A stretch of DNA of 64,000 nucleotides from Marispirochaeta aestuarii (lineage in GTDB: Bacteria > Spirochaetota > Spirochaetia > JC444 > Marispirochaetaceae): assembly GCF_002087085.1 (NCBI RefSeq), contig NZ_MWQY01000001.1, positions 248,001-312,000 of the forward strand, read 5' to 3'. Positions 7,664-32,938 of the stretch are shown here, piece by piece. The notes under the pieces were generated by a model. The model saw only the letters and a list, made by a program, of their open reading frames with translations, was not told the origin of the DNA and did no database searches. The stretch's first letter is position 1; each line of letters starts with the position of its first letter. The position numbers and the translations under genes are program-made.

Positions 7664-7748
7664 TGATGGGTCCTTGTTTTATTGGGTTATGCACTGGCCC
7701 TATTATAGGTAATTCCCCGGGCATCGGGCAAGCACAGAGGCGCGAAGT

Positions 7749-8036
7749 CTATCCGGAAATCTCGACGCTGAAGCCTGGAAACTCCCGTTCCATCTCCCGT
7801 TGAAGCTCCCGCCGGATGGATGAGCCCAGGTGTTCGTTGACAATGGAGCAGACCATACAGGTCGATCGGGGATCTGCTATGTCCATGAAAACGATCAGGC
7901 GCTTTTCGCTTTCGCTGTACCGTACCCGCCGGACAAGGTTGAGCTCTCCGATGCTGCGCAGGGTCTCCGGTTCCTTGACCCGCTGCAGCACTGAATCGAT
8001 TTTCCGCTGTACAGGAAGGGGCATTCCAGAACTCAT
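7749..8036 (-). CDS. MIP18/DUF59-like small protein
   Basis: A 95-residue protein starting at the ATG that overlaps the preceding TGA (ATGA, 8033-8036). The segment VQRKIDSVLQRVKEPETLR followed by SIGELNLVRRVRYSE has the shape of the MIP18/DUF59 family (xVxDPExxxSIxxLGLV), proteins tied to Fe-S cluster assembly. A CMVC motif at residues 60-63 could bind metal. It is the last gene of a four-gene operon containing an ArsA/Get3-like ATPase. Family assignment is by pattern only and is moderately sure; a longer upstream in-frame extension exists but would overlap the neighbour heavily. Confidence 0.6.
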   Translation of the reverse strand: MSSGMPLPVQRKIDSVLQRVKEPETLRSIGELNLVRRVRYSESEKRLIVFMDIADPRSTCMVCSIVNEHLGSSIRRELQREMEREFPGFSVEISG

Positions 8037-8665
8037 TTTTTCATGAACTCCGGCAGTCCCGCATAAATCCCGCTCAGGAGCTGCCGGAACCGGGGCTCCC
8101 GTGGAATACTGTGGATAAAGAAAACCTTGTTGTCCCGATAGCAGCAGAAGTGCAGCAGCGTATCGATGCCCTCCGTATTCTCGATCAGGGTCCGCATCTT
8201 CGCCTCCAGTCGGGGATTGTCCCATAAAAGAATAAATTCCCCTTCCCTGGTTTGAACTGTGTCGCGCTTCAGTTTATCTATTCCCTTTATGTCCACCCGC
8301 ATTTTAGGGAAGTAGCGTTTGGCAATAATATGACATTCTCCCTGAAGTTCTCTGGAAGAGTATATATGCAGATAGTAGCGGTCGTGGCGGGTTATCAACA
8401 GAGACAGGGGAAGGTAGAGTACGGAATGCCTGGGCAGCAGGGTAAAGGTGCCCTTTGCTTCCTTAAAGGGCGGATCGAGCTGATAGGTAAAATTGTGACC
8501 CAGAGTCCCGCCGATGTTTACATACTCCTTTTCCCCGGGAGAGAGTATCTCTTCCGTGACTGTACCGATCATGCCGCCGATTTCGCGGTTCTTTTTTCTC
8601 CCCTTGTAGTATCCGAGGGTTGTTGCAACGGCCAGAGCGATAAGAAGATAAATAAGTGAGTTCAT
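8033..8665 (-). CDS. Membrane-anchored protein of unknown function
   Basis: A 210-residue protein with one N-terminal membrane helix (residues 2-20, LIYLLIALAVATTLGYY) followed by a basic stop (KGRKKNR) and a soluble domain of about 180 residues, presumably cytoplasmic. I recognise no family. The neighbours give the only clue: its ends overlap the ArsA-like ATPase (8662-8665) and the MIP18-like gene (8033-8036) by 4 nt each, implying equimolar co-translation. It could anchor the ATPase complex at the membrane. Confidence 0.55.
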   Translation of the reverse strand: MNSLIYLLIALAVATTLGYYKGRKKNREIGGMIGTVTEEILSPGEKEYVNIGGTLGHNFTYQLDPPFKEAKGTFTLLPRHSVLYLPLSLLITRHDRYYLHIYSSRELQGECHIIAKRYFPKMRVDIKGIDKLKRDTVQTREGEFILLWDNPRLEAKMRTLIENTEGIDTLLHFCCYRDNKVFFIHSIPREPRFRQLLSGIYAGLPEFMKK

Positions 8666-9591
8666 GCTGAAGGCTCCTGTTGACGTATATGATCGAGGAT
8701 CTTGTCGATGGTAAGGTCTGCAAGATCCTCTGTCCTGTGGATACCCCCCGGAACCGACGCAATCTTGTTGATCGGAAAACTGGCGAAGTGGTTCTCGATT
8801 TCCGGATGGGAATCCTCCACCGAGGGGATCTTGTTAAGACAGACACTGTTGATGGTGATCTGAAGTTTCTGAAGCTCCTGTCTGATTCTCTTGGACTCTT
8901 CCAGGCTCAGGCGGTCATCGTTTATCACCAGAGACATGTAACTCCGTTCCGTAAAGAGCTGATAAAGCTTTTCCAGGCGGTCCGAGATCGACCCCAGCTG
9001 CATGGAGACCTTGTCGTCCTCTTTCTTTGTCGCCCCCTTCAGAACCGATGCTTCCGGATTCAGCCGGGTAAGGGTCTGCCTCTTGCTGAGGATTTTTTCC
9101 CTCATGGATGTGAGCTCCCGTACCCACAGGCGCGTTATTGACGGCATGGCCAGAAACTGCAGGGTCAGGGCCGTTGGCGGAGTGTCAAAAACGAGATACT
9201 CGTATTTATCCTTCCAGGTCTCATATATGTACTCGATGGCCCAGAGGGTCGCATATTCCTGGGTCCCCGGAGAGTATTTTAGAATATTCATATAGGAATC
9301 CAGGTTGATGGAAAGATTGTAGTTATAGTTCGATATCAGCTCGTCCCGGCTTTTCTTCAGATACCTCTGGACCCAGCCCTGGAGATCGATTTCCATGGCG
9401 TCGAGTCCTTTTACTATATTGCGGCGTTCATCCGCCAGGCGTGTATTGAAGATATCGCCCAGGTTATGAGCAGGATCCAGGCTGACGATAAGAACCGTGT
9501 TTCCCAGGCGGTTCAGCTGGTACGAAACCGCCGATGAGATGGTCGATTTACCGACCCCGCCTTTACCGAGAAAAAAAAGCATTCTTCGCAT
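8662..9591 (-). CDS. ArsA/Get3-family ATPase
   Basis: A 309-residue P-loop ATPase with the deviant Walker A FLGKGGVGKST (residues 7-17) and the switch segment VSLDPAHNLGDIF characteristic of ArsA/TRC40/Get3. The second box EYLVFDTPPTALTLQFLAMP matches the family's DTAPTGHTLRLL-type switch II. It has one ATPase domain, so it should act as a homodimer like Get3 rather than the two-domain ArsA. The CxxC zinc motif of Get3 is absent; the single late Cys lies in INSVCLNK. No arsenite pump or regulator is nearby, which argues against arsenic resistance. It may chaperone membrane proteins or metal clusters with its overlapping partners. Confidence 0.85.
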   Translation of the reverse strand: MRRMLFFLGKGGVGKSTISSAVSYQLNRLGNTVLIVSLDPAHNLGDIFNTRLADERRNIVKGLDAMEIDLQGWVQRYLKKSRDELISNYNYNLSINLDSYMNILKYSPGTQEYATLWAIEYIYETWKDKYEYLVFDTPPTALTLQFLAMPSITRLWVRELTSMREKILSKRQTLTRLNPEASVLKGATKKEDDKVSMQLGSISDRLEKLYQLFTERSYMSLVINDDRLSLEESKRIRQELQKLQITINSVCLNKIPSVEDSHPEIENHFASFPINKIASVPGGIHRTEDLADLTIDKILDHIRQQEPSA

Positions 9592-9872
9592 CAGTCCACC
9601 TCCAGCATTCCAAGAAGACTGCCCAATGGGTCCTGGGCCAGGTCGGCACGGGAGATCATCAGTTTTATCTCCTCTTCCATGTAGGGCATCAGTTCAAGGG
9701 CCATTGCCGAGGGGGGAGATGGGAGCCCGACGAAGCTGCCGAAGAGGAGCAGGACAAAGATGTTTTCCATCTCTTTCAGTTCAAACTCAAGCATTCCGGT
9801 AGCCTTGTCGCGGTGGACCTGTACGGCGGTTTCCCAGAATACTCTGAGTCCCCTGGAGATTTTTTCCAGCAT
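9591..9872 (-). CDS. Small protein of unknown function, first gene of ArsA-like operon
   Basis: A 93-residue protein rich in Met, Glu and Leu with a moderately hydrophobic stretch (ENIFVLLLFGSFVGLPSPP, about 35-53) that could be a single membrane helix or a buried core. The flanking amphipathic helices carry many charges. It overlaps the ATPase start by one base. I recognise no family. The consistent coupling suggests it is a subunit or client of the ATPase. Confidence 0.5.
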   Translation of the reverse strand: MLEKISRGLRVFWETAVQVHRDKATGMLEFELKEMENIFVLLLFGSFVGLPSPPSAMALELMPYMEEEIKLMISRADLAQDPLGSLLGMLEVD

Positions 9873-9909
9873 TGTTGTATGGTACTCCTTTTTCTTCCGG
9901 TACGGAATA

Positions 9910-9951
9910 CGGCCTGTGGCCCCCCCGCCTAAGGGGGGAACTCACAGGCCG
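9910..9951. terminator. Strong GC hairpin downstream of cstA
   Basis: Arms CGGCCTGTG (9910-9918) and CACAGGCCG (9943-9951) enclose an inner CCCCCC/GGGGGG stem. It lies just after the cstA stop and before the ArsA-like operon on the same strand. There is no T-run, so termination may be incomplete or the hairpin may protect the 3' end. A further small inverted repeat (TTCCG-GTA-CGGAA) sits beside it near 9895-9907. Confidence 0.55.
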
Positions 9952-9978
9952 CAATCATGGTAAAGTCCGTTTGCCGGC

Positions 9979-11661
9979 TCAGGCGCCGGTCTTTTCCTTG
10001 AAGTTCCTGAAGAACGAGACGATCATGGTGATATTCATGATCAGCATGATCAGGGTAATAAGCCCGACGGTGGTGCCGGTTACCATGCTCTTGACAGTAG
10101 CGCCGGTGGCGAAGTGGCCGGGTATTATAACCAGCTCATACCAGATAAGACCTGCCGTTACGGTTACCCAGAGAAGGATCGCCGGAATCAGCACGATATT
10201 GGTGTATTTTGCGCTCAGCTGCTTGTGTACCCACATGGCGACGGTAAGCATGACAACGGAAGCGATCAGCTGGTTGGCGCCGGAGAAGGCGGGCCACAGA
10301 ACGGTGTAGTTTCCTGTCCATGCAAGTCCGATACCCAGGACAGCGACCACCATGGAGCCGAACCACTTGTTCTGGAAAAGGTTGTAGGCACCGGTGTTCT
10401 TTTCCTTAAGGGGCAGGGCCAGTTCGCCGAGGATATACCGTCCCAGACGGTTTGTGGTGTCAAGGGTAGTCAGGGCGAAGGAGCTTACCCAGATGGAGGC
10501 AAAAAGCTTCATGAAATCCGCGGTAAAGACCGGCATTGCAGAGGCAACCATGGCACCGTAGCTGGAGGTAAAGCGGGGCAGTGCACCGGTGGTCAGTACG
10601 TTTCCTGCTCCCAGGGCCTGGATGCCGAAGGCTGCAATGGAAATTACAACGATGGTGGAAAGGAAACCTTCAGTCAGCATGGCACCGTAACCGACGAAGA
10701 GACTGTCTTTCTCTTCCCGGAGCTGCTTGCTGCTGGTTCCCGAGGCAACCAGGGCGTGGAACCCCGACAGGGCCCCGCAGGCGATTACCAGGGGTACCGT
10801 GGGCCAGAAGGGAGAGGGTTTTCCGCCGATGACCTTTGCGCTGAATTCTGTAAAGAGGGGAACGGAATCGAAGTTCTTTACCGCGATAACTGCGGCGACT
10901 CCCCCTGCGAGCAGTCCGAAATAGAGCAGGAAGCTGTTCAGGTAGTCCCGGGGCTGCAGCAGGATATTAACCGGCAGCGCGGCTGCAATGAAGATGTAAA
11001 CCAGAATTACCAGGAACCAGGTGTCCTTGCTGGCGGGGATCCCTACATTGCGTCCGATCATGAAGGCGGCAACCAGCAGAACAAGGCCGATAATCGTGCT
11101 GACGGAAAAGGGAAGTTTTGTCCGGTACAGCAGTATTCCCAGAACGATCGCTGCGGCACAGAAAAGGAAGAAGGTGGAGGCAACAGCTCCGTCTCCTGCA
11201 AACTGCCCTGCAACGATGTCTCCGAAGGCTGCAACGATCAGGATGCAGAGGAAGAGGATGAACCAGCCGAAGGATTTGCCGGCTTTTTTGCCGATCAGGT
11301 CCTGGGCCACAAACTGGACAGACCGCCCGTCATAGCGTACAGACGCGGTCAGGGCGAGATAGTCATGGATGGCCCCGATAAAGATATTACCGAACCAGAT
11401 CCACAGAAGACCCGGCAGCCATCCCCAGGCAACGGCCAGGGCCGGTCCGACGATGGGGCCCGCTCCGGCGATCGAGGCGAAGTGGTGACCGAAGAGCACG
11501 AATTTGCTCGTCGGAATGTAATCCACTCCGTCGGAAAGACGCTTCGATGGTGCGTCCGCCGCCTCGTGCGATTTTATCAGGTTCAGCTGCAGTTTTTTTC
11601 CGTAGACGAAGTAGAAGACCAGATAAATCGCCAGTGCAACAAGAATAATTAATGTTGACAT
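9979..11661 (-). CDS. cstA: Carbon starvation protein CstA family, peptide/pyruvate transporter
   Basis: An inner-membrane protein of 560 residues with at least 14 hydrophobic segments. The signature near the N-terminus is complete: DGVDYIPTSKFVLFGHHFAS then IAGAGPIVGPALA, and FIGAIHDYLALTASVRYDGRS. CstA proteins were described as peptide transporters induced in carbon starvation, and relatives (BtsT) import pyruvate. It is shorter than E. coli CstA (about 700) but in the usual range for many phyla. GGAGGAG precedes the ATG. A promoter-like element is visible upstream, and the gene is a single transcription unit. Confidence 0.9.
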   Translation of the reverse strand: MSTLIILVALAIYLVFYFVYGKKLQLNLIKSHEAADAPSKRLSDGVDYIPTSKFVLFGHHFASIAGAGPIVGPALAVAWGWLPGLLWIWFGNIFIGAIHDYLALTASVRYDGRSVQFVAQDLIGKKAGKSFGWFILFLCILIVAAFGDIVAGQFAGDGAVASTFFLFCAAAIVLGILLYRTKLPFSVSTIIGLVLLVAAFMIGRNVGIPASKDTWFLVILVYIFIAAALPVNILLQPRDYLNSFLLYFGLLAGGVAAVIAVKNFDSVPLFTEFSAKVIGGKPSPFWPTVPLVIACGALSGFHALVASGTSSKQLREEKDSLFVGYGAMLTEGFLSTIVVISIAAFGIQALGAGNVLTTGALPRFTSSYGAMVASAMPVFTADFMKLFASIWVSSFALTTLDTTNRLGRYILGELALPLKEKNTGAYNLFQNKWFGSMVVAVLGIGLAWTGNYTVLWPAFSGANQLIASVVMLTVAMWVHKQLSAKYTNIVLIPAILLWVTVTAGLIWYELVIIPGHFATGATVKSMVTGTTVGLITLIMLIMNITMIVSFFRNFKEKTGA

Positions 11662-11699
11662 AGCTCCTCCTTGAAGGTGTTTTTGTTAAATCTGTCTTT

Positions 11700-11743
11700 A
11701 TCCTACGCCCGTTTCGCCGACTGCGCAAATATTTTTTTGCGTA
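11700..11743 (-). promoter_or_regulatory. Probable cstA promoter with overlapping dyad
   Basis: On the minus strand, TTGCGC (11728-11723) and TAGGAT (11705-11700) are separated by 17 bp, a plausible sigma-70 promoter. A dyad, TACGCAAA-N6-TTTGCGCA (11743-11722), overlaps the -35 and may be an operator. Reads are by eye only. Confidence 0.45.
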
Positions 11744-23009: not shown

Positions 23010-24419
23010 GTGGAAATTGTAATCCCAACCAACCAGCGCCCCGAAATCCTGAAAGAGGCGCTGGTTTCTTTTATTCAGTATCTGAAAAACAGCAGTAGAG
23101 CCGCGAAGATCACAATCCTGGACGATTCCCGGGACTCCGTCTCGGCTGCGGCGAACCGGGACCTGTGCGCCGGTCTCGCCGGGACCTTCGGCGGCAGTCT
23201 GCGCTGCTTCGGCCGGGCCGAACGGGAAGCTCTGTCTGACAGGTTCAATAACAGCAGCCGGAGTTCTCTCTTCGAGTTTGCCCTGGGTCTGCCGGAAACG
23301 GTTGTAACGGGTCACCCCGGGGCCAACCGCAATGTCGGGCTCCTGCTGTATGCCGGTCGGAAGGTCCTGAGCCTGGACGACGATGTACGCTTCCGTTTTC
23401 TCCGATTCCGGGATGCAAATGGTTTTGCAGGGAATGACGACGGGATACCTCTGCTTCTTCCCCTGGGAAGCCGTAAGCGCCTTGATAAACTGACGGTGCC
23501 GGCGGACTGGAACCCGGATACAATAGATACGGTACTGGGAAGCTCTCCGTCTTCCGTGGACCATAACGGGCCGGTGAAGCTCGCCATGTGCGGGATCTAC
23601 GGCGGTCGCTGGTATACGAATCCTTTTTCCCTGTGCGCTGTGCCTTCGAATTTGTCCGGCCAGATCTGGCGGGGCAAAAAGGAGTACGAAACCGCCCGCA
23701 CTGAGCCCTGGGCCCTTATGCTCAATCCCGAAATCAGTTTTTCCGGCGCACCCTTCTTTGTTTCCACCTGTTTCGCCTATGACGGCAGCGAATTGCTTCC
23801 CCCCTTTTTGCCGGGAATCCGCAGCTCCGACAGCCTCTGGGCCTGGATGCTCAGGGCGCTGTATCCCGAGTCGCCGATCTGCCACCTGCCTCGCGCGATT
23901 GAACATGATCGAAGTATCAAACGGCCTTTCGCGGGAAACGATTTTACCGGCATCGTTCCCGGAACGTCGGAAATCATGCTGCAGCTCCTCAGGTTCATAC
24001 AGAGCGGTATTCCCGGGACCCCGGATGCCGCCGGCGTATTGTACGCCCTGGGGACCGGTCTGTCCCGTTATGCAGGAGAACCGCTAAAGCGCCGGCGGGA
24101 GATTTTGACGGAACTCTATCTTGCATCCCTGGGCGGCCGTCTTGGGGTCTTCAGGCAGGGGCTTGAAGAGAGCCGGGGGAAGCCCCGTTTCTGGGCGGAA
24201 GATCTGGAACTGCATATTCGTCTCCTGCGAAACGAGGCCCGTGAAGCCCGGCCCTGGCTGCCCCGGGAGTTCAGAAACCCCGGTGGAGAGGTAGAGGAAG
24301 AACTAGACGAAGAGGCCTTCCGGGAGTACCTTGCGCACTGCGGTGAACTCCTCTGCGCATGGCCGGAGATCTGGCGGAAGGCGGCGGACTTGAACCGGAG
24401 GGGAGGTCCGGGGCCATGA
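23010..24419 (+). CDS. GT-A-type glycosyltransferase-like protein
   Basis: A 469-residue protein. It opens like a family 2 glycosyltransferase (MEIVIPTNQRPEILKEAL) with TILDDS near residue 35, then HPGANRN (102-108) and SLDDDV with an Asp triplet at 123-125 as candidate DxD metal site. No signal peptide or membrane helix is seen. The GTG start has a poor ribosome binding site. It is clearly paralogous to the next gene: both have GANRN followed about 15 residues later by DDD, a GxRW(Y/F)T motif and the C-terminal pattern ELL-AWP-I. The sugar donor and acceptor are unknown. Confidence 0.65.
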   Translation: MEIVIPTNQRPEILKEALVSFIQYLKNSSRAAKITILDDSRDSVSAAANRDLCAGLAGTFGGSLRCFGRAEREALSDRFNNSSRSSLFEFALGLPETVVTGHPGANRNVGLLLYAGRKVLSLDDDVRFRFLRFRDANGFAGNDDGIPLLLPLGSRKRLDKLTVPADWNPDTIDTVLGSSPSSVDHNGPVKLAMCGIYGGRWYTNPFSLCAVPSNLSGQIWRGKKEYETARTEPWALMLNPEISFSGAPFFVSTCFAYDGSELLPPFLPGIRSSDSLWAWMLRALYPESPICHLPRAIEHDRSIKRPFAGNDFTGIVPGTSEIMLQLLRFIQSGIPGTPDAAGVLYALGTGLSRYAGEPLKRRREILTELYLASLGGRLGVFRQGLEESRGKPRFWAEDLELHIRLLRNEAREARPWLPREFRNPGGEVEEELDEEAFREYLAHCGELLCAWPEIWRKAADLNRRGGPGP

Positions 24420-26170
24420 TGCAGGAGCGTTTTTATCCCGCGGAATGCGCGGCCTTTCCTGCGGGGCGGGAGGAGGTACTGCTCAGGAACCGGAATGCCG
24501 GGGAAACATTGATTTTACCGGCGGCGCAATATGGTTTGTTTCGTTTTCTTACAGGCTGTATTTCCCTGGACGGCCACTTGGAAACCCTGGTTCAGGCCGA
24601 CCGATACGGTTTTGCGCTTGATGTTTTGCGGCGACTTCTTACCGGATGGGTCGAGTCCGGTCTGCTCAGGCCGGAGGCCCTTCTTTCTGCAGAGAAAAAA
24701 AGCAGCAAAGACCATAAACGCGGGGGGCTTTCCGCAGCGGTAATTACCGCGGACCGTCCTGAATCCCTGAAAAAGTGGCTCGAGTCACGGACCGGTCATT
24801 CGGACTTTTCGGGGCCGCGAATCCCTCTGTATGTTTTCGACGGCAGCGGAAATTCGGACAATGCGAAGCGAAACAGGAAAATCACCGCTGATCTTGGAAA
24901 GGACTATCCCGGACCTCTTGTCTATTTCGGGGAGGAGGAAAAGCGCCTGTTTCGCGACTCTCTTGCGGCCGCCTGCAGCCTGGACGGTATCTCTCCGCAG
25001 CTGCTGGACTTTGCTCTTCACGGTCCCGGGGATGGAGCTGGTTTTGTACGCACCGGGGCCAACCGCAATACCGCCCTGCTTGCAGCCGGCAGGGGACGGA
25101 CCTGGTACAGCGATGACGACCTGTACTATCGGATTTTTTCGCATCCAGGAGCAGTTGGAGAAGGCAGGCGTTTCGAGGCGGGGGGATACTCTGAGCTGAA
25201 GTTCTTTGCGTCCCAGGGGGAGCTGCGGGACTACTTCGTAGCCATGGAGAATTACAATCTACCCCGGGAGATTCTGTCCAGGTTGGGGGAGCCCCTGAAG
25301 CTCGATGAAGCGGGTCGGGAAGATCTTGCAGCTCTGAGCCCCGAAACGGCCAGGGTTATCGAGGGCGGAGAAGCCCTGATCGGCGCCGTCAGTGCCGGCT
25401 ATTGCGGTGCCCGCTGGTTTACCGACAGTTTTTTTATCGATTCCCGGCGATATTTTTCGGATGATGACATTTACCTGGATAAAAGGCGTTACTCCGCCTC
25501 GGTTTTGTCGGGCTTGAATATCCATGCGCCCCGGATGCCTGTTGTACGGGACGGGTTAAACCTGCAGGGAGGCAGCCTGGCCCTGGAGGGTACCCTGGAA
25601 CTGCCCGCCTGGTTTCCCCTGGATCGTCAGGAGGACTCCTGCTTCGGCATGATGTTTCTGGCCTGTAATCCTCAGGTCCGGGCAATGTACCTGCCCGCGG
25701 CCCTGTATCACGATCCGGAAGTGGACAAACCGGACTTGTCGGGGACAGACCGGGACCTGCTGCCCGGACCGGGAAGGATGAACCATATGATTCTCGGAGA
25801 TTTCGTCAGACAGTTTGTCTCGGAATCAGCCGAGGGCAGGCTGCAGGAGGCAGCGCAGAAATATATCCGGACGGCTTCCCTGGGGCAGACCTCCTTCCGG
25901 GAGTATCTGAGGGCACAATACACAAAATACTCAGACAGCCGCATCGAGTTCATAGATAGGCTTCTTGATATTTACAACGATGAACCCGGGTGGTGGGCCG
26001 AATCCTTAACATCCTACCGGGATGCCCTGACCGCAGGCGTTAAGGATCCCCTCGCCGGACTTCCGGGAGGCTATCAGGAGTGGCTGAAGCTCTACGGTGA
26101 GCTCCTGGAAGCCTGGCCGGTAATCCGGGAGAGGGCCGCGTCACTCGCCGGGGAGAATCAGCTCTGCTGA
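24416..26170 (+). CDS. GT-A-type glycosyltransferase-like protein with N-terminal PqqD-like domain
   Basis: A 584-residue protein started at the ATG overlapping the previous TGA (ATGA) and preceded by GGGAGG. Residues 1-90 form an extra domain with a beta-rich start (EVLLRNRNAGETLIL), then a helix and a helical end (LLTGWVESGLL), an outline resembling PqqD/RRE peptide-recognition domains. From about 105 the glycosyltransferase-like region begins (AAVITADRPESLKKWL), with TGANRN (213-218) and YSDDDL (Asp 233-235). It is the second copy of a tandem duplication. The PqqD comparison is weak and by eye; if true, the enzyme could modify a peptide. Confidence 0.55.
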   Translation: MMQERFYPAECAAFPAGREEVLLRNRNAGETLILPAAQYGLFRFLTGCISLDGHLETLVQADRYGFALDVLRRLLTGWVESGLLRPEALLSAEKKSSKDHKRGGLSAAVITADRPESLKKWLESRTGHSDFSGPRIPLYVFDGSGNSDNAKRNRKITADLGKDYPGPLVYFGEEEKRLFRDSLAAACSLDGISPQLLDFALHGPGDGAGFVRTGANRNTALLAAGRGRTWYSDDDLYYRIFSHPGAVGEGRRFEAGGYSELKFFASQGELRDYFVAMENYNLPREILSRLGEPLKLDEAGREDLAALSPETARVIEGGEALIGAVSAGYCGARWFTDSFFIDSRRYFSDDDIYLDKRRYSASVLSGLNIHAPRMPVVRDGLNLQGGSLALEGTLELPAWFPLDRQEDSCFGMMFLACNPQVRAMYLPAALYHDPEVDKPDLSGTDRDLLPGPGRMNHMILGDFVRQFVSESAEGRLQEAAQKYIRTASLGQTSFREYLRAQYTKYSDSRIEFIDRLLDIYNDEPGWWAESLTSYRDALTAGVKDPLAGLPGGYQEWLKLYGELLEAWPVIRERAASLAGENQLC

Positions 26171-26815: not shown

Positions 26816-29080
26816 ATGAAGTCTAAAATTGTCATCTTTATTCTGCCCCCTCTGCTGATTGTCCTGCTCATTACCTCCGGTCTGGTGTATCTCAATACCC
26901 GGCTGCTGCCGAAGTCTGTAACAGCAATGGCAAACCGGCTCGAAGAACGTACCGGCCTCGTTTTTCATGCGGATTCCATCAGCTATTTCCCTTTCGCCGG
27001 CCTGAAGCTCTCCCAGGTCCGTCTTTTTGACGCATATAAGGAGTCTGATGACCCATTTTTTACCGCCCGGCGGATGGATATCGATCTGAACATACTGCTA
27101 CTGCTTAGCCGGGGAACGGGGGCGGGGAATCTTGTAAAGAGTGTAAATTTTCATGATCCGCGAATCCTTCTGACAATGGATCTTCTCTCCTTCGCGAGGG
27201 ATAGGCATAATGTACATCAGCCTGAAGGCGGCATGAAAACTCCCGATAACATGTCTGCACCGGCGGATCCCGGGACCCCGGAATCCTCTGCCGGTACAGG
27301 TACAGACAGCGGGGAAAAGTCAGTGTCCCGGGTTCCGCCTGAGTTTATCCGCTTCTGGAACATCGGCTCCCGGATAATCGGACACCGGCTCTTTCCAGAT
27401 CAGCTTTTCCTGTATAACCCGTCTTTTATCTGCACCGGCAAAACTGGAAAAACTGAAATTTTCAACGGTCCCGATGTATTTATCGACCGGGAATCCTCCC
27501 CCGGACTGCTTCAGATTACAGCAAAGGATGAGCGAACAGGCTTAAGCGTCAGTCTGAACTTCGAGGAAAAGAAAGCCGAGGGCGATTTCGAGGTTGCTGG
27601 TATCGATCTGGAACGCCTTGTTCCTCTCTTCTTCTCTGCAGATGCTCTTCCCCGCATTTCCGGATTTCTCGATGTAAAGAGCAGGTTCCTGAGCCCCGTC
27701 CCCGGGCTCATTGAGCTTGAAGGGGCATTAATGGGAAGAAACCTCGCTGTTTCCCACCAGCTCCTGGGGGAAGAGGCTGTTTCAGGGGTCGATCTGGACT
27801 ACGATTTTAACCTGATCTTTGATCCGGAACCCCCCCTGGCCCCGCCCAGGATTCTTGGAAAAGCAACCCCGTCAAATCCGGCAATCATAGCAGCCATGCA
27901 GGAGTCTCATTTGAGGGATCCCTCTTCCGCCTGGGGAGAACTGCGGGTGCGAACAGGGAATCTCAGGGTAAACGGTATTGCCATGGATTTTCTTCCGGCA
28001 ATACGGGGCATCTTTCCACGAACCTCTGCGCCGGCCCGGCTTGATCTGCGTCTTCATCTGCCGGAAACCGGAGCTGATGCGATTCTCAGGGCGGTGCCCG
28101 ATGGACTTTCCGGCCCCTTCGAAGGGATGAAGCTCGCCGGAAGTCTCTCCTGGGATCTGGACCTGGAGATTCCCCTGGATATGATTCGGGAGATGAACTG
28201 GCGGTCCTCTGTATCCATGGAAGACTTTGCTGTGGATTCAATACCGGCGGAGCTGAACGTCTATAAACTGAAACGATCCTTTGTTCACATACTGGAAGAT
28301 GGGAGAAATTCCCGAAAGATCAGGGTCCCTGAACCGCGGAGGGTGGGGCTTCAGTGGATGCTGGATAACTCTGAGCTTACGGAAAGACAGATATACCGTC
28401 TGCAGAACCGGGAAAAACAGGGGGCTCCGGAACCCGAGGTCTTCGGCGGGGAGGAAGAGGCAGCCGATGTTCCCCTCGACCGGAGTTACCGCTATGTGTA
28501 CCTGGAGGATATGTCCCGTTGGATTCCCCTGGCGGTTCTGACCTGTGAGGACGGAGACTTCTTTTTTCATGACGGCATAAACTGGCTGACCTTTCGCCAC
28601 GCAATGGAACGGAATATACTTTCCGGCGGCATCGAAGTGGGGGCCAGTACCCTGACGATGCAGCTTATAAAGAACCTTTTTTTGAGCCGCGACAGGGTTC
28701 TTGCCCGCAAGATCCACGAGGCCTTCCTGGTCTACCTTCTGGAAGGGAACGCCCGGGTTTCCAAGGATCGGATTTTAGAGCTTTACATAAATCTGGTGGA
28801 GTTCGGTCCGGGAATAATCGGTATTCGCGAGGCGGCGCAATACTATTTCGGAAAGGTGCCTGGTGAAATCAGCGCCCCGGAAGCGGTCTGGCTGGCTTCC
28901 ATTCTCCCGGCCCCACGCAGCTATCATGGCATGTTTCTTGACGGTGAAGTTCCGGACTACTGGTGGGCACATATGCGGGGTTATTTTGATCTGATGCTGG
29001 AAAGAGGTCGCCTCAGCGAGGAAGAATACCAGCGGGCTGTTTCACGGCGTCCCCGATTCAGGAATGGAGACGCCTCATGA
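26816..29080 (+). CDS. AsmA-like/GT51 peptidoglycan glycosyltransferase fusion
   Basis: A 754-residue envelope protein. An N-terminal membrane anchor (about 5-28) leads into a long AsmA-like periplasmic region (about 30-560) with a Gly/Pro/Ser linker (about 140-170). A family 51 glycosyltransferase domain follows (about 565-730) with the catalytic EDGDFFFHDG (Glu-Asp), GASTLTMQLIKNLFL and LELYINLVEFGPG. No transpeptidase domain is present, so it is a monofunctional peptidoglycan polymerase with an AsmA front end. The start has a weak ribosome binding site. It overlaps the chromate-transporter gene (29077-29080). Confidence 0.85.
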   Translation: MKSKIVIFILPPLLIVLLITSGLVYLNTRLLPKSVTAMANRLEERTGLVFHADSISYFPFAGLKLSQVRLFDAYKESDDPFFTARRMDIDLNILLLLSRGTGAGNLVKSVNFHDPRILLTMDLLSFARDRHNVHQPEGGMKTPDNMSAPADPGTPESSAGTGTDSGEKSVSRVPPEFIRFWNIGSRIIGHRLFPDQLFLYNPSFICTGKTGKTEIFNGPDVFIDRESSPGLLQITAKDERTGLSVSLNFEEKKAEGDFEVAGIDLERLVPLFFSADALPRISGFLDVKSRFLSPVPGLIELEGALMGRNLAVSHQLLGEEAVSGVDLDYDFNLIFDPEPPLAPPRILGKATPSNPAIIAAMQESHLRDPSSAWGELRVRTGNLRVNGIAMDFLPAIRGIFPRTSAPARLDLRLHLPETGADAILRAVPDGLSGPFEGMKLAGSLSWDLDLEIPLDMIREMNWRSSVSMEDFAVDSIPAELNVYKLKRSFVHILEDGRNSRKIRVPEPRRVGLQWMLDNSELTERQIYRLQNREKQGAPEPEVFGGEEEAADVPLDRSYRYVYLEDMSRWIPLAVLTCEDGDFFFHDGINWLTFRHAMERNILSGGIEVGASTLTMQLIKNLFLSRDRVLARKIHEAFLVYLLEGNARVSKDRILELYINLVEFGPGIIGIREAAQYYFGKVPGEISAPEAVWLASILPAPRSYHGMFLDGEVPDYWWAHMRGYFDLMLERGRLSEEEYQRAVSRRPRFRNGDAS

Positions 29081-29625
29081 TCATGAGGCTTTTCGTACAG
29101 TTTTTCCGGATAGGCCTCTTTACCATCGGCGGAGGCTACGCCATGGTACCGATTATTGAGCATGAGATTTCCACAACCGCAAAGCTGCTCAGCAAGGCGG
29201 AGATAGACCATGTACTGCTTGTAGCCCAGTCGGCACCGGGTCCCATCGCTGTCAATACGGCCTTTTTGATCGGGCGCCACATCGGAGGCTGGAAAGGAGC
29301 TGTGGCCACCTGTCTGGGGGTGTCTCTTCCTTCCTTTTTGATAATTCTGTTAATTGCGATCCATCTTTCGGGATTTTTCGAGCTGCCGGAGGTCATGTCC
29401 TCCTTCCGGGGAATCCGTGGCGCTGTTGTCGCCCTTATAGCGCTGACCGGGATTCGGGTCGCCCGGCGCACTTTCTCCGTGTTTCTTGTTATCCTCGCGG
29501 TAATCTGGTTTCTCCTGCTCATTCTTACCGGAATAAACCCCTACCAGATTGTCGCCCTCTCGGTTGCTGCCGGTCTTGTGCGGGAGTTTCTGCGCAGGAG
29601 ACGCAAAGGAGGGAAAGCCGGATGA
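29077..29625 (+). CDS. Chromate-transporter family protein, first half
   Basis: A 182-residue membrane protein with the CHR signature: FRIGLFTIGGGYAMVPIIEHE near the start and QSAPGPIAVNTAFLIG about 60 residues later. It has about five hydrophobic segments. It represents one half of a ChrA-type carrier; the other half is the overlapping next gene. CHR pairs transport chromate or other oxyanions, but the true substrate of many family members is unknown. It is preceded by the AsmA-GT51 gene, which it overlaps by 4 nt. Confidence 0.85.
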   Translation: MIMRLFVQFFRIGLFTIGGGYAMVPIIEHEISTTAKLLSKAEIDHVLLVAQSAPGPIAVNTAFLIGRHIGGWKGAVATCLGVSLPSFLIILLIAIHLSGFFELPEVMSSFRGIRGAVVALIALTGIRVARRTFSVFLVILAVIWFLLLILTGINPYQIVALSVAAGLVREFLRRRRKGGKAG

Positions 29626-30140
29626 CGCTGCTTTCGCTGCTGCTTGCCTTTCTAAAGATCGGTGCTTTCAGTTTCGGCGGCGGATATGCCGCGATCCCCC
29701 TCATAGAAGTCGAGGTCGTTCGAGTGCACGGCTGGCTCTCCCCTCACCAGTTTGCCGACCTCATTGCAATCTCTCAGCTGACCCCCGGCCCGATTGCCAT
29801 TAACTCTGCCACCTTTATCGGATACAGGGTGGCCGGGATTCCGGGTTCAGTCCTTGCAACCCTGGGAGTTCTGCTTATTCCAATCCTTATTGTGATTCTT
29901 CTGTGGATTGTCGCGGACCGCTTCTACCATTCCAGCTGGATACAGGGTGCCCTGCTGGGGCTGAAGCCGGCGCTGGTTGCCCTGATTTTTTACAGCGCCT
30001 GGTCCATAGGCCGGGTAGCTTTTGATTCTTCAGGACCGATTCTGCTGGCCCTGGGAGCATACGCTGTTCTCCGATTTTCAAGACTGCATCCTGCTTTCAT
30101 TATTGCGGCTTCGGGGCTTGTGGGGTTTCTGTTTTTGTAA
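29622..30140 (+). CDS. Chromate-transporter family protein, second half
   Basis: A 172-residue partner of the preceding gene, with the same two signature elements (FLKIGAFSFGGGYAAIPLIE and QLTPGPIAINSATFIGY). The two short CHR proteins form a heterodimer in the family. The ATGA overlap (29622-29625) implies co-translation. It ends 22 bp before the promoter of the EIIA-diadenylate cyclase gene. Confidence 0.85.
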   Translation: MTLLSLLLAFLKIGAFSFGGGYAAIPLIEVEVVRVHGWLSPHQFADLIAISQLTPGPIAINSATFIGYRVAGIPGSVLATLGVLLIPILIVILLWIVADRFYHSSWIQGALLGLKPALVALIFYSAWSIGRVAFDSSGPILLALGAYAVLRFSRLHPAFIIAASGLVGFLFL

Positions 30141-30162: not shown

Positions 30163-30190
30163 TTGACAGGAAAGACCCGTAGGGTATTAT
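30163..30190 (+). promoter_or_regulatory. Sigma-70 promoter of the EIIA-diadenylate cyclase gene
   Basis: TTGACA (30163-30168) and TATTAT (30185-30190) are separated by 16 bp. The predicted start site, 6-8 bp later, falls at about 30197, only one or two bases from the ATG at 30199. This would make the mRNA nearly leaderless. Confidence 0.65.
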
Positions 30191-30198
30191 TGAAGGTA

Positions 30199-31527
30199 AT
30201 GACAATTTTCAGTCGCATGCTGACGGAAGGCTCGGTGTTTATCTACCCGGCAGGTCAGGGAGTCAGCAAGGACGAGGTTATACGGCGCCTGTGTAGAGCC
30301 GTCGCCGCGGATCTGGGGGGAATGGATGCCGCTCAGGTCGAATCCCTGGTGCAGAAACGGGAGGCCTCCCTATCCACCCGGCTGAGTCCTCTCCTCGCAG
30401 TTCCCCACGCCGTTATCCCCCACAGTAAGGACAACAGGATGGCGGTGGCTGTTATTCCGGATGGTCTGGACTGGGACAGTGACCGGGATAATCCGGTTCG
30501 TCTCGTGATGTTGCTTGCGGGGGGAAGGGAAAAACACCTCAAGCTCCTCAGTGAAATGGCTGCGGTTCTGCAGAATGAAGAGCTCCTTGATCGCCTCATT
30601 TCCGCCCTGAATGCCGCAGAACTTATCTCCATTCTGCGTCAACCGGAGGAAACCCGGGGCAATATATACCATGATCGTCTGGGCATTTCTTCGCTTATTT
30701 TCAACGAGGCGGTGAGGATTCGGAATTCCATCGATTCCGCCCGTCTTCTGCTGCATGCCGATGCCATTGAGGATGATGAGTTTATCGAATCCCTTGTGGA
30801 GGGAACGGATGCAATTATCGTTACCAGCCGGGAGGGACGTTTCGATTCCCGGCTCACCGATGGAAACAGTCCGATTGTCATGCCCTTCAAAGGAGTCAAG
30901 CGTTCCGCCCATGTTCAGTTTACCCTGATGTATCTTCTCAGCCGAAAAGTGCTCAGCCAGACTGATATCATTGTAAATGTCTTCGGGCAGCCTGGTTCCG
31001 GTTTTCTTGATTCCCTTCGGCTGACCCGGCTCGAGGATGCGGAGATTCCCTTTTCATCTGCAACCGAAGGTTTCCCGGAGGACCTGGAGATCTCCACCTT
31101 CACCCGTGTCCTTCAGGTCGCGACCCAGATCGCCCTGGAGGGAAGGGAGGGGAAACCGGTGGGGACCCTTTTTGTGGTCGGCGATTACGATGGGGTCGTG
31201 CAATATACCAGGCAGATGATCGCCAATCCCTTTCATGGTTATCCCCGGGAGGACAGGAATATTCTTGATCCGAGCATTGAAGAGACGGTAAAGGAGTTCG
31301 CCCGCATCGACGGTGCCTTTATTATAAACGGTGACGGCACAATTGAATCCGCCGGGACCTATTTGTCCGGCCAGCCGACCGCCGAAGAGATGCATTCAGG
31401 CCTTGGCGCCCGGCATGCTGCAGCCCAGGGAATATCCGCCGTCAGTTCCGCTCTTGCTGTGGCAATATCCGAATCGACACGAAAGATAAGCGTCTTCAAA
31501 TCAGGACGGCTTATTATGGAATTATAA
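30199..31527 (+). CDS. PTS EIIA domain fused to DacZ-type diadenylate cyclase
   Basis: A predicted 442-residue c-di-AMP synthase. Residues 1-150 look like a fructose/mannitol-type EIIA domain with the phospho-acceptor candidate His70 in AVPHAVIPH. Residues 155-315 resemble the pyruvate-kinase-C-like domain of archaeal DacZ proteins (TDAIIVTSREGR, VNVFGQPGSG). Residues 320-442 form the DAC domain: VVGDYDGVV, NPFHGYPREDRNI, DGAFIINGDG (Asp371-Gly-Ala) and GLGARHAAAQGIS (Arg404-His405), close to the RHR motif. Condensing two ATP to c-di-AMP under PTS phosphorylation control is an inference. It precedes an epimerase by 34 bp. Confidence 0.85.
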   Translation: MTIFSRMLTEGSVFIYPAGQGVSKDEVIRRLCRAVAADLGGMDAAQVESLVQKREASLSTRLSPLLAVPHAVIPHSKDNRMAVAVIPDGLDWDSDRDNPVRLVMLLAGGREKHLKLLSEMAAVLQNEELLDRLISALNAAELISILRQPEETRGNIYHDRLGISSLIFNEAVRIRNSIDSARLLLHADAIEDDEFIESLVEGTDAIIVTSREGRFDSRLTDGNSPIVMPFKGVKRSAHVQFTLMYLLSRKVLSQTDIIVNVFGQPGSGFLDSLRLTRLEDAEIPFSSATEGFPEDLEISTFTRVLQVATQIALEGREGKPVGTLFVVGDYDGVVQYTRQMIANPFHGYPREDRNILDPSIEETVKEFARIDGAFIINGDGTIESAGTYLSGQPTAEEMHSGLGARHAAAQGISAVSSALAVAISESTRKISVFKSGRLIMEL

Positions 31528-32864: not shown

Positions 32865-32938
32865 TGGAGCTGATGGGAGTCGAACCCACGACCTGTTGAT
32901 TGCGAACCAACCGCTCTAGCCGGCTGAGCTACAGCCCC
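32865..32938 (-). tRNA. tRNA-Ala (anticodon CGC)
   Basis: The minus strand folds into a full cloverleaf: acceptor GGGGCTG/CAGCTCC, D-arm GCTC/GAGC, anticodon stem GTTGG/TCAAC with loop TTCGCAA (anticodon CGC), 5-nt variable loop and T-arm GTGGG-TTCGACT-CCCAT. The acceptor has the G3-U70 pair that identifies alanine tRNAs, and the discriminator is A. CCA is not encoded. It decodes GCG. Confidence 0.93.

Follow-up and report, generated by a model that had tools for sequence, protein, structure and literature searches.

A PTS EIIA domain fused to a DacZ-type diadenylate cyclase in Marispirochaeta aestuarii and relatives: a candidate receiver of a phosphotransferase relay

The locus described here raises the question of whether a diadenylate cyclase may carry its own receiver domain for the phosphotransferase system (PTS), and what such a domain would do for the enzyme. 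It lies within the window, that is, the whole stretch of 64,000 nucleotides of the Marispirochaeta aestuarii genome that was analysed. The initial annotation had read it as a single gene encoding a PTS EIIA domain, a pyruvate-kinase-C-like middle part and a diadenylate cyclase (DAC) domain.

Domain organisation of the protein

The forward-strand frame at 30163–31527 is free of stop codons throughout and represents one intact gene, and its EIIA and DAC domains both score far above their Pfam cut-offs, which bears out the fusion of the two within a single protein (Table 1). The frame was thus read correctly, but its proposed start, TTG at 30163, fits less well than ATG at 30199, because the EIIA homology begins near the latter and the TTG opens a promoter-like site. 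Two sites of this type were found in the region against 1.9 expected by chance from shuffled sequences, and hence the motif is not proof of a promoter.

Table 1. Coordinates of the fusion gene and its features within the window
Feature	Position	Strand	Details
Promoter-like TTGACA-16-TATTAT	30163..30190	+	11/12 consensus positions; overlaps the initially annotated start codon TTG 30163
EIIA – PK_C-like – DAC fusion gene	30199..31527	+	442 aa; start most likely ATG 30199; stop 31525-31527
PTS EIIA domain (residues 1-150)	30199..30648	+	PF00359 4.5e-23, residues 10-147; fold match EIIA-Ntr 1a6j
Arg54-Glu55 codons, conserved EIIA residues	30358..30363	+	R54 in 87/91, E55 in 91/91
His70 codon, putative phospho-acceptor	30406..30408	+	H in 83/91 distinct EIIA-bearing sequences; Q 6, K 1, Y 1
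Middle domain, pyruvate-kinase C-terminal-like fold (residues 150-297)	30646..31089	+	Related to Pfam DacZ_P
DAC (DisA_N) catalytic domain (residues 311-437)	31129..31509	+	PF02457 1.1e-21; CdaA-AMP 8c4n Z 16.0, rmsd 2.5, 130 aligned
DGA motif Asp371-Gly372-Ala373	31309..31317	+	D371, G372 in 91/91
RHA motif Arg405-His406-Ala407	31411..31419	+	R405, H406 in 91/91

Assignment of residues 1–150 to an EIIA domain is well founded. The PTS_EIIA_2 profile (PF00359) matches amino acids 22–159 of the frame counted from 30163 with 82.1 bits against a cut-off of 27 (E = 4.9e-23), and residues 2–150 of the predicted structure superimpose on EIIA-Ntr (1a6j; Z 21.5, rmsd 2.1, 146 aligned residues). The full-protein model, built from 53 sequences, has a mean pLDDT of 89.8 and a pTM of 0.70. 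On the label ‘fructose-type’ the evidence points two ways: the window protein scored alone against NCBIfam favours fruA (56.7 bits) over PtsN (34.5 bits), whereas the best PDB match of the EIIA family profile is EIIA-Ntr (PtsN), and EIIA-mannitol is a lower fold match (Z 17.6 versus 21.5). The active-site residues His70 and Arg54 are both present. His70, the candidate phosphohistidine of the initial annotation, is numbered correctly with ATG 30199 as the first codon, and few EIIA positions vary less across the 91-sequence alignment. The domain shares its conserved Arg, Glu and His residues with PtsN, which is a free-standing protein, whereas the EIIA domain of the window is joined to a cyclase. 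At His113, the other EIIA histidine, only 53 of the 91 sequences have His, and the remaining 38 have a different residue.

The pyruvate-kinase-C-like middle part is below threshold by sequence and clear by predicted fold. Pfam DacZ_P (PF21755) scores 19.6 bits on the window protein, short of the cut-off of 27.4; among the 53 scanned family members, it matches 41 at E ≤ 0.01 (best 5.2e-25), and PK_C matches 10. Modelled alone, the domain reaches a pLDDT of 86.2 and is closest to pyruvate kinase (5wrp; Z 12.5, rmsd 3.1, 121 aligned residues), and among the matches listed for it all 50 Foldseek and all 50 VIA-align rows are pyruvate kinases. Identity to the window protein in this domain is 13–39% across relatives. 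A loop that we take to be the counterpart of the fructose-bisphosphate loop of pyruvate kinase was considered as a sign of fructose bisphosphate binding and rejected as such, the loop being devoid of specific conservation (at position 209, T in 45 and S in 10 of 91 sequences).

The DAC profile (PF02457) matches amino acids 323–449 of the 30163 frame with 77 bits against a cut-off of 27 (E = 1.2e-21), and model residues ~246–442 match solved DAC structures. Profile and structure searches together thus place EIIA and DAC above their Pfam cut-offs and recover all three folds, and EIIA and DAC are both present in every one of the 53 scanned members. The DGA and GLGARH motifs are present, as initially described. 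The DAC fold is shared with CdaA (DacA), which is encoded in the same genome and has, to our knowledge, neither an EIIA domain nor a PK_C-like part. CdaA is reported to carry an N-terminal transmembrane domain (PMC8573169).

Closer in layout is archaeal DacZ, also named CdaZ (DacY), in which a PK_C-like domain is likewise followed by a DAC domain with a DGA motif. Alignment by hhalign with an annotated Haladaptatus DacZ gave a probability of 99.8 over 218 columns at 28% identity, in support of the DacZ layout; the score against the narrow, haloarchaeal NCBIfam DacZ equivalog (NF041371), in contrast, is 109.3 bits (amino acids 234–454), well below the cut-off of 430. The annotated archaeal DacZ examined, at 268 amino acids, lacks EIIA, whereas the window protein has EIIA ahead of its PK_C-like part. 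The Haloferax volcanii DacZ has been reported as an active, Mn2+-dependent and essential cyclase, with an N-terminal region that was modelled as PK_C-like and suggested to be regulatory (PMC6741144).

Distribution and genomic context of the fusion

In the wider scan, a single-protein query gave no matches, and an alignment query yielded at least 588 stretches and at least 562 relatives, of which the best 80 were kept; the spread given here is a lower bound. The three-domain architecture is shared by relatives in Spirochaetota, Fibrobacterota, Verrucomicrobiota, Kiritimatiellota, Planctomycetota and other groups. Among 98 near relatives, 32 genomes, including that of the window, gave a DacZ-type DAC match at E < 1e-25; 29 of them (again including the window's) have an EIIA-bearing open frame, and the other three comprise one locus with an in-frame stop (L082), one truncated at the edge of its contig (L057) and one with DAC only (L083). 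The fusion is rare in 296 genomes drawn evenly across the phylum, being found in six (G000, G130, G293, G253, G021 and G008), and three genomes of the same sample (G003, G107 and G042) have a DacZ-type DAC without EIIA. The 91 distinct EIIA-bearing sequences used for residue counts derive from 117 loci and still include near-identical rows; dropped beforehand were L144 (translated in a wrong frame), truncated sequences (L093, L102, L057 and L165), L082, L083, sequences without EIIA (L086–L088, L148, L152, L153, L156 and L162) and 11 rows with identical C-terminal 250 residues, a step that also took out most duplicates of genomes found by two routes.

Several individual copies deserve mention. 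The interrupted copy of genome G353 (L082:2639-3952) aligns with residues 30–467 of its sister and has EIIA in the same frame, with an open frame of only 169 amino acids; it is either a pseudogene or the product of a sequencing error. The relative found in G253 (L071:9685-11529) occupies a 614-residue frame with a long, low-complexity-looking insertion before and within the middle domain, and in one Spirochaetaceae metagenome-assembled genome (GEM2.Bin30) a pair of near-identical copies lies on separate contigs (L089 and L090).

The window's genome encodes two DACs, the fusion and a CdaA-like protein, as well as a 7TMR-HD, PgpH-type candidate c-di-AMP phosphodiesterase. Ten EIIA loci, fusion included, were found in it, together with four matches each for EI and HPr. 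A CdaA-sized DAC accompanies the fusion in 30 of the 32 fusion-bearing genomes (50 examined), the exceptions being G355, which is 79% complete, and G008; this pattern counts towards our preferred explanation, under which the fusion would have a regulatory and not a housekeeping role in the group to which the window belongs. Outside this set, no DAC other than the fusion was found in 28 of 46 fusion-bearing genomes from the best 80 of at least 562 relatives, many of these genomes being metagenome-assembled and of unknown completeness, which makes the absence of a second DAC uncertain in any one of them. By phylum, such sole-DAC genomes make up 18/18 in Verrucomicrobiota, 7/12 in Fibrobacterota, 1/5 in Kiritimatiellota and 2/4 of those with no phylum name, with 0/4 in Planctomycetota and 0/1 each in Hydrogenedentota, Myxococcota and Spirochaetota.

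Fusion-bearing genomes nearly always encode the upstream PTS proteins (EI in 77 and HPr in 72 of the 78 genomes, 32 plus 46). As evidence for a PTS link this co-occurrence was rejected, given that all 17 fusion-less genomes also have both. Pfam searches of the neighbours found no PTS gene adjoining the fusion gene in the window, nor any among ten conserved-neighbour representatives of other loci (nine with a Pfam match). Conserved neighbours vary by lineage, as judged from the 117 loci less 15 at which a simple ORF caller missed the DAC gene. About seven Fibrobacterota loci (L125, L127, L128, L131 and relatives, ~7700-11700) share an arrangement in which the DAC gene is flanked on one side by a glycerol-phosphate-acyltransferase-like gene and on the other by one for phosphoglucose isomerase, the Pfam assignments coming from L128 only.

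Within the window, a tandem pair of half-size chromate-transporter (PF02417) genes (29077-30140, +) ends 22 bases upstream of the promoter-like site. Before it lies a gene for a 754-residue protein (26816-29080, +) with a transglycosylase domain confined to residues 555–704, near the C-terminus, and a long N-terminal part free of Pfam matches. Farther upstream, a 603-residue ORF (24359-26170, +) has no Pfam match at E 0.001. The sole tRNA, which is also the sole Rfam match, in the window is a tRNA-Ala (CGC) at 32865-32938 (-).

The EIIA domain as a putative receiver

The history of the EIIA domain was approached through two trees. The first was built from EIIA domains, 40 fused and 27 free, and left out L210, L212, L013 and free EIIAs devoid of the A/S-x-P-H motif; in it the two sets separate except for a single free row on a long branch (own_L206), and monophyly of the free set was not rejected (p-AU 0.879). 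This topology fits, and does not prove, one old fusion event. The eight EIIA-less rows of the DacZ tree fall in two places and could represent loss of EIIA.

His70 is missing from eight of the 91 sequences (L121, L125, L127, L131, L132, L146, L155 and L159). Seven of these losses fall in one supported, mainly Fibrobacterota clade of ten, the other three members of which keep the histidine. The eighth, L155, comes from a genome of 0.6 Mb (perhaps incomplete) in which a search detected neither EI nor HPr; the coincidence of a lost histidine with an absent PTS is a single case and suggestive only. One Chitinispirillum genome holds both a copy with His70 (L103) and a copy with Gln (L132).

Taken together, these observations lead us to favour, with moderate confidence, a reading in which the protein is a DacZ-superfamily diadenylate cyclase and its N-terminal EIIA domain the receiver of a regulatory PTS relay. 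The phosphoryl group would pass from phosphoenolpyruvate (PEP) through EI and HPr, both encoded in the genome, to His70. The phosphorylation state would then alter how EIIA packs against the PK_C-like domain and, through this, the dimer that brings two DAC domains together to join two ATP into c-di-AMP. The PK_C-like domain, judging by its fold, may supply a second metabolite input. In the spirochaete of the window, the fusion would supplement CdaA as a second, conditional source of c-di-AMP; many Verrucomicrobiota and Fibrobacterota would have no source but the fusion. This reading is supported by the recovery of three domains by both profile and fold, the retention of His70 in most sequences and the clustering of its losses; it is weakened by the lack of an adjoining PTS gene, the failure of EI and HPr to discriminate, the inconstancy of His113 and the persistence of copies that lack His70.

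Alternatively, EIIA could act as a docking module, such that phosphorylation-dependent binding to a K+ transporter or other partner brings the cyclase, and local c-di-AMP, to its target. The precedent is the unphosphorylated PtsN of Escherichia coli, which is reported to bind and inhibit the K+/H+ antiporter YcgO, phosphorylation weakening the binding (PMC11808508); PtsN and c-di-AMP have each been linked to K+ control in the literature, and both the family profile and the fold are nearest to EIIA-Ntr. However, no potassium transporter was found among the conserved neighbours scanned, and docking of this kind would still need a phosphorylatable histidine. We regard docking as a strong rival, if rather unlikely beside the receiver reading.

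Less likely still is that EIIA is a remnant with a purely structural or dimerising role, to which phosphorylation is irrelevant. Proteins without His70, or with another residue in place of His113, do persist, and Gln, Lys or Tyr is found at position 70 in places in the sole DAC of a genome; phosphorylation is therefore not required for retention of the gene. Yet His70 has been kept across several phyla in the great majority of sequences, while the middle domain drifted to its present low identity, which is hard to square with an idle EIIA domain and makes this explanation improbable to us.

The receiver reading presupposes a working cyclase, on which the initial annotation had cast doubt by noting RHA in place of RHR. 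The third Arg of the RHR motif is a feature of DisA and CdaA. At this position the window protein has Ala, and the 91 sequences have A in 59, T in 17, R in 6, V in 4, E in 3 and Q in 2; an annotated archaeal DacZ has RHH. The third Arg is probably not defining for the DacZ branch, and its replacement is unlikely to mean loss of activity. RHA cannot be equated with inactivity because the sole DACs of genomes carry A, T, E or V there, and the doubt is accordingly a weak one. That the DAC domain is dead and the protein a pseudo-enzyme or sensor, for which the Ala and the scarcity of Arg could be cited, is thus highly improbable, given that the motif varies family-wide, that archaeal DacZ departs from it too and that in 28 of the 46 genomes no DAC was found besides a version with A, T, E or V.

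Implications

No paper describing an EIIA-DAC fusion was found in literature searches, the reach of which did not extend to ‘All DACs in a Row’, a review published in J. Bacteriol. in 2023. This review reportedly sorts DACs into 22 families by domain architecture and is said to be the source of the name DacZ_P. The EIIA-DAC architecture may already be catalogued there, which we think likely because DacZ_P is found in most of the scanned EIIA-DAC proteins. What the present analysis seems to add is the conservation of His70 with its clustered losses, the sole-DAC pattern of Verrucomicrobiota and the family-wide variation of the RHx motif.

A broader proposition, which we advance tentatively and with somewhat less conviction than the receiver reading itself, is that c-di-AMP in whole clades, namely all 18 examined Verrucomicrobiota and 7 of 12 Fibrobacterota, would rest on one EIIA-bearing cyclase, the level being set directly by the PEP phosphorelay, and that the pyruvate-kinase-like pocket might admit carbon status by a second path. 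The regulatory PTS would then have an output of a new class, and the Fibrobacterota proteins in which Gln or Lys takes the place of His70 would be natural fixed-state versions.

The control of diadenylate cyclases is largely open, and a cyclase that bears its own receiver names an input (PEP/HPr), a residue (His70) and an output (c-di-AMP). If the genomes reflect the biology, the fusion is the only cyclase in many Verrucomicrobiota. Carbon supply may thus directly steer c-di-AMP, as the domain arrangement suggests, and a coupling of carbon supply to K+/osmotic control is thereby opened to direct tests.
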